Assembly: GCA_014376885.1 (NCBI GenBank)
Contig: JACMQR010000064.1
Coordinates: 1 to 20,049, forward strand
Direction: 5' to 3'
Length of the DNA stretch: 20,049 nt
Source: Polaromonas sp.
GTDB lineage: Bacteria; Pseudomonadota; Gammaproteobacteria; Burkholderiales; Burkholderiaceae_C
Under the pieces are notes generated by a model that was given only the letters and a program-made list of their open reading frames with translations, searched no databases and was not told the DNA's origin. Of the stretch, positions 13,430-18,346 are shown piece by piece. A program made the translations under genes and the position numbers. Position 1 is the stretch's first letter. Each line of letters starts with the position of its first letter.

Positions 13430-14035
13430 CTAACTGTCCACAAACCCTTCCAGTTGCGCCACCGAGCGCGGGTCGGGCGACCACACTTCCAACAAAAAGT
13501 CGGCTTCCTCGTGCCGCGCCAGACGGAGCCAGCCCAGTTGCGCTGCCAAGGCGCGGTGCACGTCGTCGCCGTTCAGCGCGTAGCCTTCAACGGGATGACG
13601 CCAGTGACAGGCCAGCAAGGTGCCGTCAGGCTCCAGTGCCGCTTTCATCTGGTCAATCAGTTTGGCCAGTTGTCCATGGTCGAGGTAAAAGCCGATTTCG
13701 CTGAACACGATCAGGTCAAAACTGCCCGTTGGCCAGTTGTCAGGCACCCAGCCCTGCAAAAAACGGATATTCGCCAAGCCTTCCAGCCGCTGGCGTGCGC
13801 GTTCGAGCGCGGCCGGCACGCCATCGGATACCAGCAATTCAGCACAACGCGGTGCCAGCGCAGCGGCCAGTTCGCCGTTGGCGCAACCGGGTTCGTAAGC
13901 GCGCCGGTAGCGCTGACGCGGCAAGCTCGCCACTGTCAGGTCGCGCTTGCGAGCCTCATACCAGCGGGTCTTGAAGCCCCACGGATCGTCTGCGCGCTCA
14001 AACAGCTGGGTGAATTCTTTTCTGTCCGGGTTCAC
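13430..14035 (-). CDS. NodS-like SAM-dependent methyltransferase
   Basis: Class I methyltransferase of 201 aa. Residues 17-31 (DPWGFKTRWYEARKR) and YEPGCANGEL (47-56, SAM-binding motif I) match the NodS-like family, whose founding member N-methylates the amino sugar of rhizobial Nod factor after deacetylation. Further motifs are LLVSDGVPAALERAR and the segment SFDLIVFSEIGFYLDH. It is the last gene of a four-gene leftward operon. The start is GTG at 14035, overlapping the PIG-L stop as GTGA, with GAGG seven nt upstream. The substrate is unknown; the neighbours suggest an aminated sugar or a hydroxyl on the same product. The product name is firm at family level only. Confidence 0.88.
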   Translation of the reverse strand: MNPDRKEFTQLFERADDPWGFKTRWYEARKRDLTVASLPRQRYRRAYEPGCANGELAAALAPRCAELLVSDGVPAALERARQRLEGLANIRFLQGWVPDNWPTGSFDLIVFSEIGFYLDHGQLAKLIDQMKAALEPDGTLLACHWRHPVEGYALNGDDVHRALAAQLGWLRLARHEEADFLLEVWSPDPRSVAQLEGFVDS

Positions 14036-14808
14036 AACGTGGCCTCGACTGGCATGAAGTATTCAAAGCCACGCTGCATTCGCGCCAAGGCAAAGCCGGG
14101 CAGCACAGCGGGTGCGCCGGTGTCTTGCGGCACCAATTGGGTTCGGTGGGCGGCTAGAGCCAAGGCTTTGTTGCGCAAGCTGTTGGCAGGCAATGCCAAC
14201 CGGCGCAGCTGTTGCCACGGCACACGCGTATCGCCAGGCCGTGCCCAATGCCACATCCACACCGGGGCCTGCCAATGGCGGCAGCCCCTTTGGCGGCAAA
14301 CCCGCGCGGCAACCTGGCCAGCGGCTTCATGGTCGGGATGGCCGTCCAGTTGCCACGTGGAAAACACCACATCGCGGGGCTGGAGCAATTCGGCGAGTCG
14401 CTGCGCCAGCAAATCGCCCGAAACGGCCAGCTTGCCATCCGGCAGCGACAGGCGGTTTTGGCTGCATGGTGGCAGCCCCAGCTGGCGCAGACCCGCCAGG
14501 CTTTCGCTGATGCGGGCCTCGGCCAGCTTCGCAGGCGGCCACTGCCGTGAGCCCGGATGGCTGGCTTCGCCGTCGGTCAGCGCAATCACCAGAACGGGGC
14601 TGCCGCGCGCAGCCAGCATCGACAGCAGGCCGCCAAAGCCAATCACTTCATCGTCCGGATGCGGCGCAAGCACCACGGCGCGGCAAGCCGGGGGCACCAG
14701 GTCGTCCAGTGTCAGCAAGGGCATCTGGCCCAGGCCGGACCACGCCTGCCATTGGATTTCAGGCGTGCCTTCGCCTGCGATCTGGCGGTCGAACACTACA
14801 GCGCCCAT
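14032..14808 (-). CDS. PIG-L family deacetylase (LmbE-like)
   Basis: Zinc hydrolase of 258 aa that in known relatives removes the N-acetyl group from GlcNAc-containing substrates (PIG-L, MshB, BshB). The metal site is visible as LAPHPDDEVIGFGG (HPDDE at 50-54) and the second motif DGHPDHEAAG (HPDH at 157-160). ALTDGEASHPGS is also typical. About 40 residues precede the catalytic domain, which is longer than many family members. The ATG at 14808 lies 13 nt inside the upstream flavoprotein gene, and the stop overlaps the methyltransferase GTG. There is no signal peptide, so it should act in the cytoplasm. It probably unmasks an amine for the following methyltransferase or the flavoprotein, which is an inference from context. 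Confidence 0.92.
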   Translation of the reverse strand: MGAVVFDRQIAGEGTPEIQWQAWSGLGQMPLLTLDDLVPPACRAVVLAPHPDDEVIGFGGLLSMLAARGSPVLVIALTDGEASHPGSRQWPPAKLAEARISESLAGLRQLGLPPCSQNRLSLPDGKLAVSGDLLAQRLAELLQPRDVVFSTWQLDGHPDHEAAGQVAARVCRQRGCRHWQAPVWMWHWARPGDTRVPWQQLRRLALPANSLRNKALALAAHRTQLVPQDTGAPAVLPGFALARMQRGFEYFMPVEATL

Positions 14809-15866
14809 GACTGTAGTTCTGCCGCGGCAGCGCGTTCGCCCAGGGCCGCAAAATCGCGTTCAGCATGACTTTGGCGCAGATACACCGGCAAGTCGCAGGC
14901 CATGCGTGCAAAGCGGGCATCCTTGCAAAAAGGGGAGGCGCCCAGCGCCCGGCCGGTTTGCGTCAGCACTAGTTCGGCGCTGGCTTCAGCACTCAGTCGC
15001 ACCCGCAACGCCAGCGCGCTGGCGTCGGCCGCAGGATGCGCGTCAATCCAGGCCGCTGCCTCGCGCAGCAATGCAGCGGTGTGCTGGAGCGCCAGGTCAA
15101 CTTTGCCCAGGGCGATATGGCGCAGCAGGGGTTTGTCACTTTGGCCGCCTTGCGACGTGGCTTGCCACAGCGCATGCGCCAGTGAATGCGCGCCGCCCAG
15201 CCAGCAGGCTGCAATGCCTGCGCCGCCGTGCCAGAAACCGGGGCGCTCCAGGTAAGCGCCAGCCTGGCCAATCAGTTGCGCGCGGGCGGAGGAAAAAACC
15301 ACATCGACGCTCGCGCTGGCCGCCATGCCAATGGCTGGCCAGACTTCTTTGGACACCTGCACGCCGGGCTGGCGCATGGCTACGCTGGCCAGAAAAGGTC
15401 CGCTGCCGTCGCGGCTCCACACGGTGAGCAGGCCATGCGAGACCGATCTGGCGCCGGAGCACCAGGCCTTGCGGCCCTCAAGCCAGATGCCGTGCGCGCC
15501 GTCATCAGCGTCTGACTTTTCAGCGTCGTTGCCAATCGGCAGGAAAACCACCTTGGCATCGGGCGGCTCGGCGGCCCACATGCCCCAGCTTGAACCGGGC
15601 GGAACTGGCGGTGCCCCCAGTTCGCGCATGATGGCCAGCGCATCGGTATGGCCCTCGAACAACTTGGCCAGCGACAAGTCCTGCGAACCCACCCGTGCCA
15701 GCGCCTGCCAACGCTCCAGCGTGCGACCGCTGCCTGGAGCAGGCAAGTCGGCCTGGCCGGTAGCCACAAGTTTTTGCAGACTTTGGGCAACCTCGAGTTC
15801 ATGCGACGGGACTGGCACAGCCGCGCTGATGGAAAGAGCGTGGTCAGGGCTGTCGGTTAGAGGCAT
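14796..15866 (-). CDS. Acyl-CoA dehydrogenase-fold flavoprotein, divergent
   Basis: A 356-aa protein recognised as acyl-CoA-dehydrogenase-like from the middle beta domain (LEGRKAWCSGA about 129-139, then PGVQVSKEVWPAIGMAAS) and the C-terminal helical domain (TGRALGASPFCKDARFARMA, 304-323, and LPVYLRQSHAERDFAALG, 326-343). It is shorter than typical family members (about 380-400 aa); the first 50 residues show little family signal. The usual C-terminal EGT-type segment carrying catalytic Glu is not seen; QSHAERD stands in its place, as in some monooxygenase-like members of the fold. It may therefore oxidise something other than an acyl-CoA. GAGG lies seven nt before ATG at 15866. It overlaps the glycosyltransferase gene by 10 nt and the PIG-L gene by 13 nt. 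No fatty-acid oxidation gene is nearby. Confidence 0.8.
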   Translation of the reverse strand: MPLTDSPDHALSISAAVPVPSHELEVAQSLQKLVATGQADLPAPGSGRTLERWQALARVGSQDLSLAKLFEGHTDALAIMRELGAPPVPPGSSWGMWAAEPPDAKVVFLPIGNDAEKSDADDGAHGIWLEGRKAWCSGARSVSHGLLTVWSRDGSGPFLASVAMRQPGVQVSKEVWPAIGMAASASVDVVFSSARAQLIGQAGAYLERPGFWHGGAGIAACWLGGAHSLAHALWQATSQGGQSDKPLLRHIALGKVDLALQHTAALLREAAAWIDAHPAADASALALRVRLSAEASAELVLTQTGRALGASPFCKDARFARMACDLPVYLRQSHAERDFAALGERAAAAELQSWAL

Positions 15867-16552
15867 GCAGCCGCCTCGCCGCCCAAGCCGGATTCAGGAA
15901 ACACGTTGAGCAAAGTGGCGCCAAATCCGCCAACTGCGCGAAAATCTTTGCGGGCGCTGGTCACGACGCGTGGCGCGGCCGACCAGGCAATCAGGGCGCC
16001 GCAGGCTTGCAGCGCATGCACCAGCGCCACGTCTTCGCTGCAGGCCAGTGGCGGAAAGCCGCCTGCATCGCGGTAAGCCTGGGCGCTGACGCCCAGGTTG
16101 GCCCCGTGGATATGCCGGTGACCATGCGCATCGTTGTAAGTGGTCTTGAAATGCATCGCCAGTTGCGGCGAATGCCCGCTCCAGTCGTTGACCGCTACCG
16201 TGCCGCAAACTGCATCGCTGCACTGCTCAAGTTGATCCGCCAGCCAATCGGGCGAAACCAGCGTGTCCGCGTCGGTGAATGCCAGCCAGCGCGCGCCCAT
16301 GTCCAGGCAGCGTTGTGCGCCAGTTGCGCGGGCAATGCCAACGTTGCGCGCCTGCACGTGGAGTGTTTGAACACCATGGGCGGCGGCAATATTTGCGCTG
16401 CCATCGGTGCAACTGTCGAGCACGACCAGGGTATGCACGATTTCGCTGTCAAGCTTGGGCGACGCCGCCGCCGCAGCGACAGCCTGCAAGCAACTGGCCA
16501 GCCACGCCTCTTCGTTGTGAACGGGTATGACTATGCCCAGCATGACCGGCAT
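15857..16552 (-). CDS. GT2 family glycosyltransferase
   Basis: Small 231-aa GT-A fold glycosyltransferase. GIVIPVHNEEAWLASCL at the N-terminus, VVLDSCTDGS (44-52), the metal-binding DAD motif in AFTDADTLVSPDW (94-96) and CSEDVALVHAL (SED at 172-174) are standard GT2 elements. There is no transmembrane helix, so it is a soluble or peripheral enzyme rather than a processive synthase such as NodC. It is the first gene of the four-gene operon. ATG at 16552 and ATG at 16543 (three codons later) are both possible and neither has a strong ribosome-binding site. The only promoter hint is a TTTAAT hexamer about 31 nt upstream without a -35 partner. Donor and acceptor are unknown. Confidence 0.9.
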   Translation of the reverse strand: MPVMLGIVIPVHNEEAWLASCLQAVAAAAASPKLDSEIVHTLVVLDSCTDGSANIAAAHGVQTLHVQARNVGIARATGAQRCLDMGARWLAFTDADTLVSPDWLADQLEQCSDAVCGTVAVNDWSGHSPQLAMHFKTTYNDAHGHRHIHGANLGVSAQAYRDAGGFPPLACSEDVALVHALQACGALIAWSAAPRVVTSARKDFRAVGGFGATLLNVFPESGLGGEAAACL

Positions 16553-17203: not shown

Positions 17204-18280
17204 TCAGCCGCCACTGCCGGTTGAAAAGGTGAAATTTCGACTGAAAGACGTGCCATTGTTGGTGCCACTGAGCATCACGGTATAACCCGTCTCCGATAGC
17301 AAGGGCGCGTCCGGTACGACATAGGCCTGGTGTGGCCCGAAGCAGCCAGTCAAGCATGGCCCGTACGGGTCGTTGGCTGAAGTGATTGGAGCCCTCAATG
17401 CCACGGCCTCGCCAGTGGCCGCCCGGAACATGGCTGCGCTGGTAATGGCCAGTCGATTTCCTTCCCGCACCGCGATGTACACGGTAGAGCCCAGCGGTTT
17501 CGTGCGCAGGTCGCGGCCTGGTACCGGATTGGGGGTTTCATTGCTCAGCTGCGGGTTCACGCTGCCCGTGCCTTCGCAGGGATAGGTTTGCACGTCATTG
17601 CTGCCCAGTCTTTGCGGGCCGGCGCTGGCGGTGTAGGCTGCGTTGATCTGCACAAAAACACCGGGTTGGCCCTTGCCGGTGTCGTCCCTGGAACGCACCG
17701 CCACGCCGACATCGCGGTAGCCGCTCATCAGCCCGTTGAGGTGGTAGGGCGCATTCAACAGCGCGCGAATTCCCAGCACGCCGATGCCGCGCTTGGGCAA
17801 CGATGCGTTGCTGGAAGTGAAAAAAGCGAATTCGTCGGTCACGCCACCCAGGTCGGTGTAGCCCTGCGCCCGCACGCGGGCGGCCGGGTCGGTGCCGGTG
17901 AAGCCTTCCGGAAACCGGTTGGCGTCTTCCAGGTGCGAATTCAGGCTGTTGATGATCAGGTAGTCGGCATGCGCGCGCGCTGCCCTGTCGAGCGATATGT
18001 TGGACGCCAGCAGCCCGAAACCGCAGCGCTCCCGCTCGGCATTAAGCAACTGATAGGCCGACAATTCTTCGCTGTTTGGCGGATAGTTGGTCGGCGTGGC
18101 CACCGTGGACACGATGGAGGGATTGGGCGACGCAGGTTGCGCGGCGGGTGGCGGCAATGTTGTATTGCCGTCGCTGCCACCGCCACAGGCCGATAGCAAT
18201 GCCGTCAGTGCGAGCACAGGCGCCAGCCGGGCAGAGGTGGCGACGCATGGCGATCCGAAATTGAAAAAGTGTGTATTCAT
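17204..18280 (-). CDS. CAP (SCP/PR1) domain lipoprotein
   Basis: A 358-aa predicted lipoprotein. Residues 1-32 form a signal peptide with hydrophobic core LAPVLALTALLSAC; the lipobox LSAC places the lipidated Cys at 32. A Pro/Ser/Thr-rich linker (about 33-70) follows. The CAP domain spans about 72-220: LSAYQLLNAERERCGFGLL, SLDRAARAHADYL, SLNSHLED, FTGTDPAARVRAQGY and GYRDVGVAV. The His and Glu residues that line the CAP cavity are plausibly the two in ARAHADYL and NSHLED and the Glu of TDEFAFF. The last 100 residues are beta-rich, may form an Ig-like domain and contain a CLTGC pair. Bacterial CAP proteins are extracytoplasmic with poorly known function. The ATG at 18280 was chosen because it starts the signal peptide; CGGA lies just upstream. 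It is probably monocistronic. Confidence 0.88.
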   Translation of the reverse strand: MNTHFFNFGSPCVATSARLAPVLALTALLSACGGGSDGNTTLPPPAAQPASPNPSIVSTVATPTNYPPNSEELSAYQLLNAERERCGFGLLASNISLDRAARAHADYLIINSLNSHLEDANRFPEGFTGTDPAARVRAQGYTDLGGVTDEFAFFTSSNASLPKRGIGVLGIRALLNAPYHLNGLMSGYRDVGVAVRSRDDTGKGQPGVFVQINAAYTASAGPQRLGSNDVQTYPCEGTGSVNPQLSNETPNPVPGRDLRTKPLGSTVYIAVREGNRLAITSAAMFRAATGEAVALRAPITSANDPYGPCLTGCFGPHQAYVVPDAPLLSETGYTVMLSGTNNGTSFSRNFTFSTGSGG

Positions 18281-18346
18281 AAATTCCGGATAAGTAACAA
18301 ACAACGACGAAGAAAAAAGCATCATCGGCAGTGATTCGACACGATA

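Follow-up and report, generated by a model that had tools for sequence, protein, structure and literature searches.

The window analysed here, a stretch of 20,049 nucleotides (nt) from Polaromonas sp. (contig JACMQR010000064.1), carries a cassette of four genes for a GT2 glycosyltransferase (GT), a flavoprotein with the fold of acyl-CoA dehydrogenases (ACADs), a PIG-L/LmbE-type deacetylase and a NodS-like methyltransferase (MT). It is nearly certain that the four genes make up one pathway. We further hold, with confidence a little above even, that the cassette is one patchily distributed, often plasmid-borne and stress-associated unit which makes a modified amino-sugar glycoside by the steps proposed below. 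An assigned product or functional description of the cassette was not found in the open-licence literature searched. Amino-sugar biosynthetic gene clusters are known as a kind; it is for this combination of genes, its breadth and its stress setting that the searched literature gave no functional description. A preliminary description of the window had named the four families and proposed that their products act as one unit. Both proposals hold, the unit by order, overlaps and recurrence, and three points are added here: the trehalose/stress context, another copy within the window's genome, and an operon listing from Acinetobacter in the literature.

For the species scan, one genome per species was used (84,980 species). 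At least 572 relatives were obtained and the best 80 of these were used as named loci, which therefore lean to the window's type. In the genus, family and phylum samples, each counted with the window's genome, the flavoprotein was matched in 7 of 87, 23 of 200 (two of them weakly) and 41 of 398 genomes (eight matches weaker than 1e-8), respectively. With the window's own genome excluded, 52 of the 65 matching genomes gave 53 sampled loci; excluded were the weak matches G138, G282, G315, G401, G460, G481, G536, G578 and G611, one set broken by a contig end (G042) and three strong matches from genera already represented (G564, G588 and G621). Nineteen plasmid loci were picked for spread, and the named and sampled sets have some contigs in common. 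The four genes were found together in 67/80 named, 41/53 sampled and 12/19 plasmid loci, and one sampled locus (L176) had no core match under a stricter setting.

In every case in which ACAD-like, PIG-L and MT genes were found together inside 5 kb, this order was kept, with the GT gene at either end. The main arrangements are flavoprotein-PIG-L-MT-GT, frequently with a second PIG-L gene in Pseudomonas, and GT-flavoprotein-PIG-L-MT, which is the type of the window. Neighbours were analysed with a codon-scored caller of open reading frames (ORFs), the DNA being GC-rich. On 141 loci, deduplicated by flavoprotein sequence, overlaps were counted at 111/126 flavoprotein/PIG-L, 99/124 PIG-L/MT, 75/82 MT/GT and 22/28 GT/flavoprotein junctions; these counts are biased upward because, among the in-frame starts, the one closest to the upstream stop was taken. 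In the window, the GT and flavoprotein genes overlap by 10 nt, the flavoprotein and PIG-L genes by 13 nt and the PIG-L and MT genes by 4 nt. The preliminary description had given these lengths correctly, while speaking of four junctions where there are three.

Pairwise distances among the four families were correlated at 0.84-0.92 over 101 four-gene loci and at 0.58-0.86 for distant pairs, values which were calculated with the four families only, no control protein being included, and which shared ancestry of the hosts explains in part. The families are not mostly found apart, which the preliminary description had named as a point that would speak against a common pathway: in 31 of the 33 sampled genomes with an MT match at E 1e-17 or better, a threshold chosen after the table had been seen and applied with the window's own genome excluded, the flavoprotein was located within ~3 kb. 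Genomes G606 and G607 had a strong MT match and no flavoprotein match in a scan which scored at most five candidates per genome. In one case (P0054, 556 amino acids (aa)) flavoprotein and MT are fused. Chance adjacency of the four genes was rejected.

The window flavoprotein had no Pfam match at 1e-3. It was classed as ACAD-like by the NCBIfam model SfnB (E 4.3e-4), by ACAD Pfam domains in many relatives, by a PDB profile search and by the predicted structure, which has the ACAD fold. Alignment by profile placed its motif KawCSGA on KAFCSGS of TdsC, KSFCSGA of MsuC and KHFCSGA of DszC, i.e. on the KxxCSGA-type motif of these group D flavin-dependent monooxygenases, and the nitrososynthases KijD3 and DnmZ were among the fold and profile matches. 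The motif cysteine (C136) is present in 74 of 95 aligned members. At the position of the catalytic Glu of acyl-CoA dehydrogenases (MCAD E376 type), located by alignment to two ordinary ACADs and by counting from the aligned structure ends, the protein has Gln332, and this Gln was found in all 95 family members. An ordinary acyl-CoA dehydrogenase was rejected since the catalytic Glu of the MCAD type is absent. Judged by these residues, the flavoprotein looks more like an ACAD-fold flavin oxygenase than like an acyl-CoA dehydrogenase, and oxygenase chemistry would be somewhat the likelier assignment. The oxidative enzyme of the preliminary description is thus favoured by the motif and Gln332, and left undecided by the predicted fold.

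All 77 cassette PIG-Ls of the named loci have the motifs PHPDDE and GHxDH, which hold the zinc ligands and the base (HPDD/HxxH). By motif the cassette PIG-L is catalytically intact, in agreement with the deacetylase that had been proposed, and it is likely to deacetylate an amino sugar. Its relatives in the PDB include TT1542, diacetylchitobiose deacetylase and N-acetylglucosaminyl-malate deacetylase. The best NCBIfam matches of the window PIG-L were BshB1 (E 2.3e-14; 53.7 bits versus an equivalog cut-off of 182.5), BshB2 (30.7 versus 195.25) and MshB (26.9 versus 224.35), and each of the four cassette proteins scored under every equivalog cut-off. In Pseudomonas-type loci (L055-L134; e.g. L133:12434-13249) a second PIG-L follows the GT, and in 31 of 31 of these copies PHPGDE replaces PHPDDE. 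The residue lost is presumably the usual base Asp of the PIG-L family, and its loss suggests another chemistry. In the Pseudomonas locus L080, a called ORF of ~1200 aa (family f78) separates the flavoprotein and PIG-L genes; in another, L086, it comes after the second PIG-L.

The closest solved structure of the MT is PDB entry 4isc (E 1.6e-55), which we take to be a structural-genomics entry from Pseudomonas syringae, followed by NodS (3ofj, E 5.5e-12) and gentamicin N-methyltransferases (E ~8e-5). The presence of the latter among the weaker matches makes N-methylation of an amino sugar plausible, and O-methylation is also possible. A PADLOC match to mad2 was taken as a generic methyltransferase-domain match. 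The GT was assigned to GT2 by Pfam (PF00535, E 4.2e-15) and by a GT-A fold with DxD, and all 68 GTs of the named loci had a D-A/G-D motif. Its scores were 59.9 bits against TIGR04283 (arsenosugar-type GT, cut-off 182) and 46.7 against MftF (cut-off 280). The nearest solved folds use differing donors, UDP-GlcNAc among these, so the donor is not readable from the fold.

A stress setting was indicated by the neighbourhoods. A trehalose/glucan marker was found in 11/53 cassette loci and 2/60 random windows (p 0.006); with all stress markers counted, the figures were 18/53 and 2/60 (p 3e-5), the control being 60 windows of 20 kb from 30 of the sampled genomes; these p-values are guides only because the markers were picked after the neighbourhoods had been seen, one query was used for each, and the loci are related. 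In 45 of the 80 named loci, nearly all of them Pseudomonas, the cassette is located downstream of a co-oriented glgX-type gene. From Pfam domains and the published order, the preceding genes read as glgA, then treZ-malQ-treY-DUF2934-glgX. PMC8982409 gives the order glgA-treZ-malQ-treY-glgX for the trehalose locus of P. syringae, with mutants in which the deletion spanned glgA to glgX only. In PMC8084333 there is no mention of 'acyl-CoA', 'deacetylase' or 'methyltransferase', and in PMC6181384, on BfmR and desiccation, none of 'LmbE', 'PIG-L' or 'acyl-CoA dehydrogenase'. Comamonas has one contiguous run otsA-flavoprotein-PIG-L-MT-GT-otsB, in which four of the five junctions overlap, and in L161 and L179 the closest marker upstream, with the orientation of the cassette, is otsA. 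Catalase, otsA and otsB genes are near the cassette on an Acinetobacter ursingii plasmid, and Ku/LigD, catalase or ferritin-like genes on other plasmid records.

Published data from A. baumannii point in the same direction. In the RNA-seq data of PMC5660220 (Table 2), ACICU_02432-02435 are tabulated as one operon under the names glycosyltransferase, SAM-dependent methyltransferase, LmbE protein and acyl-CoA-dehydrogenase-related protein. All four were 31-62-fold down in two colistin-dependent mutants, in which OtsA, OtsB and catalase were 12-50-fold down. Homologues of all four cassette proteins were found in another A. baumannii record in the order flavoprotein-PIG-L-MT-GT, which matches the ACICU order; the two sets were equated by names and order. 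The published co-regulation with otsAB is independent support for the stress context.

The unit, its order and its overlaps extend far beyond Burkholderiales, the range outside which the preliminary description had left conservation to be checked. Further plasmid-borne sets are found in alphaproteobacteria, Deinococcus, Actinomycetota and one cyanobacterium. Plasmid records from Kitasatospora (GT located by tblastn), from Nostoc and, in large number, from alphaproteobacteria carry the set, and for Roseomonas a GT was not found within 7 kb. D. gobiensis encodes its GT on the strand opposite to the rest of the set. The flavoproteins of Deinococcus radiodurans and D. gobiensis have an extra N-terminal domain of 400 aa (L135:6543-8882, L149:5585-7933). 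For that of D. radiodurans no Pfam match was obtained and only a sub-threshold hint of a glycosidase (GH35, E 0.008); a free relative of the domain adjoins the cassette in one Polaromonas (L205:11632) and has a sub-threshold GH1 match (E 0.006). In Rubrobacter, a CE4 polysaccharide deacetylase gene (PF01522, E 3.6e-26) stands immediately before the flavoprotein gene and is followed by MT, FAD oxidoreductase and GT genes, and no PIG-L was found within the 15 kb examined.

In the pathway proposed, the soluble GT2 would move an N-acetylated amino sugar, probably GlcNAc, onto a small acceptor in the cytoplasm, and PIG-L would strip the acetyl group and free the amine. The ACAD-fold flavoprotein, with reduced flavin and oxygen, might then oxidise the product at or beside the freed amine, and the NodS-like enzyme would methylate it, presumably in this order. 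The best hint that the second step is removal of N-acetyl from a sugar is the unrelated enzyme of the same chemistry which takes the place of PIG-L in Rubrobacter. The result would be a small amino-sugar glycoside in modified form, which the cell would produce alongside trehalose/alpha-glucan and further protectants as part of an osmotic, desiccation and stationary-phase response. Our more specific proposal is tentative and falls short of even confidence: a widespread stress metabolite, i.e. a small, perhaps trehalose-based glycoside whose glucosamine-type sugar is N-oxidised, N-methylated or both, and which might serve as a desiccation or osmotic protectant or as a redox metabolite. The cassette that would make it ranges over Pseudomonas, Acinetobacter and Polaromonas as well as Deinococcus and Actinomycetota.

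Several observations weigh against this pathway and its stress role. With respect to the unit, PIG-L or GT was not found nearby in some loci. In D. radiodurans the PIG-L and MT genes are separated by a helicase gene and no GT was located by tblastn; homologues on Methylobacterium and Natrinema plasmids occur without the cassette; Gloeothece has a gene with a methyltransferase domain but no adjacent PIG-L; and the replacement of PIG-L by CE4 is seen in one genome. With respect to the flavoprotein, the motif Cys is Ala in 21/95 aligned members, those of the alphaproteobacterial type; the fold matches also include true ACADs at tied Z, so that the fold alone is indecisive; the oxidised position is guesswork; and no flavin reductase is encoded in the unit or recurs among the identified neighbour families, a single FMN reductase adjoining a distant flavoprotein homologue in Gloeothece. 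With respect to the stress context, the markers were selected once the plasmid and Pseudomonas neighbourhoods were known and the sampled loci are partly non-independent; 35/53 cassette loci are without any marker; no trehalose gene is among the scanned window neighbours (17 ORFs scanned), which are housekeeping and chaperone genes; and the occurrence of otsA-type genes in the genus (65/87 genomes; 7/7 with the flavoprotein, 58/80 without) is uninformative.

The acceptor could be trehalose itself or another sugar of the trehalose/alpha-glucan pathways, and the product a modified (amino, N-methyl, N-oxidised) trehalose-type protectant. The position of the Comamonas cassette between otsA and otsB in one overlapping run, otsA upstream in L161 and L179, glgX upstream in the Pseudomonas-rich named loci and the A. 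baumannii co-regulation with otsAB (PMC5660220) all fit this proposal, but shared regulation alone gives the same picture. Moreover, some cassettes have catalase, Ku/LigD or ferritin-like neighbours and no trehalose gene over the length examined, the window copy is without a trehalose neighbour, and otsA does not discriminate within the genus, so we regard a trehalose-type acceptor as unlikely, though a serious minority option. An exported, surface or lipid-linked glycan or signal modified in the manner of Nod factors is improbable. The NodS profile match of the MT would suit it, as would the additional glycosyltransferases or sugar mutase in the vicinity of some copies (Sphingobium L146, D. 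gobiensis L149) and the cardiolipin-synthase-like and YbhN-like genes (both named by sequence reading) and autotransporter genes which follow some Pseudomonas cassettes. Those neighbours are clade-specific, however, the GT is short and without a membrane-synthase part, and the unit has no recurring acyltransferase, flippase or exporter.

A cofactor- or thiol-like pseudo-disaccharide, comparable to the glucosamine conjugates made by MshA/MshB and BshA/BshB, appears quite improbable as well. Although GT and PIG-L are paired as in mycothiol and bacillithiol synthesis, the best NCBIfam matches of PIG-L are BshB1, BshB2 and MshB (all under cut-off) and catalase or other redox genes adjoin several loci, the unit has no cysteine ligase, its GT is GT2-like, MshA and BshA being GT4 enzymes, and the thiol pathways are not known to include a flavoprotein or NodS-like step. 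Least probable is that the genes are merely co-regulated and catalyse separate reactions, with the flavoprotein as an ordinary acyl-CoA dehydrogenase. The fold comparison, which ties true ACADs with oxygenases, and the public names, which read acyl-CoA dehydrogenase, would allow this; fixed order, overlaps, correlated divergence, the flavoprotein-MT fusion and the invariant Gln in place of the catalytic Glu speak against it.

Coordinates and features of the four cassette genes in the window
Feature	Position	Strand	Properties
GT2 glycosyltransferase	15857-16552	minus	231 aa, GT-A fold; leads the unit in the window arrangement
ACAD-fold flavoprotein, probable flavin-dependent oxygenase	14796-15866	minus	356 aa; K133-x-x-C-S-G-A; Gln332 at the ACAD catalytic Glu position
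PIG-L/LmbE-type zinc N-deacetylase	14032-14808	minus	258 aa; PF02585 E 9.1e-25; PHPDDE and GHPDHE intact
NodS-like SAM-dependent methyltransferase	13430-14035	minus	201 aa, GTG start; PF05401 E 1.6e-13

Family scans of the window (Pfam, NCBIfam) covered 17 ORFs, the four cassette genes included. The other 13 are an aminotransferase, homoserine dehydrogenase, threonine synthase, MobB, a MoeA-like protein, MoaE, ClpB, maleylacetoacetate isomerase, a CbpA-like DnaJ protein, a PrxQ-like and a PhoH2-like protein and two without a match. A 373-aa protein without a Pfam or NCBIfam match at 1e-3 is encoded between the cassette and the CbpA-like gene (17204-18325, minus strand); judged by eye, its N-terminus resembles a lipoprotein signal.

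A second set is present in the window's genome (contig C86:1-4216, L207), with the GT truncated by the contig end. Identity to the window copy is 58% for the flavoprotein, 67% for the GT (186 residues before the contig end), 54% for PIG-L and 58% for the MT. The assembly has 2.59 Mb in 401 contigs and is 78% complete with 2.2% contamination; since its purity is uncertain, the second copy needs checking. The nearest relative of this copy is L060 (62%), which differs from that of the window copy and suggests either separate gain or contamination of the bin.

The cassette represents a pathway of four enzymes whose gene order is constant over several phyla and which is located near stress genes of well-studied bacteria. 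What it makes could be a component that has been missing from bacterial tolerance to drying and salt. The misleading label 'acyl-CoA dehydrogenase' on the flavoprotein has probably hidden it.

Among known systems, the A. baumannii operon ACICU_02432-02435 has adjacent tags for the same four kinds of enzyme; it differs from the window in that the GT is last rather than first, and the section of PMC5660220 that reports it gives expression and no function. The Pseudomonas locus glgA-treZ-malQ-treY-glgX (PMC8982409, PMC8084333) shares with the cassette its place after the glgX-type gene in the named loci. The close MT relative 4isc is listed as 'Methyltransferase', and the listing assigns no function. 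KijD3 and DnmZ (amino-sugar nitrososynthases) and DszC, TdsC and MsuC (monooxygenases) have the fold of the cassette flavoprotein, and the latter three its KxxCSGA-type motif, but identity is 15-21% and the oxygenase activity of the cassette protein is putative. MshA/MshB and BshA/BshB likewise pair a PIG-L enzyme with a glycosyltransferase, but the cassette has a GT of another family, lacks a ligase and scores under the NCBIfam cut-offs. The logic of sugar transfer, N-deacetylation and N-methylation is that of NodC/NodB/NodS in Nod-factor synthesis, and the cassette MT is a relative by NodS profile, matching the Pfam NodS domain model (51.4 bits versus 24). In contrast to Nod-factor synthesis, the cassette deacetylase is PIG-L and not CE4 (Rubrobacter excepted), an acyltransferase is absent, a flavoprotein is added, and the MT is far under the curated NodS equivalog (72.3 bits, cut-off 300). 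A Nod-factor operon was rejected, as scores were under cut-off and no supporting genes, neither NodA acyltransferase nor NodC synthase, were among the 17 scanned window ORFs. A real link to Nod factors is not supported, and the parallel is best read as a useful analogy and not as membership.

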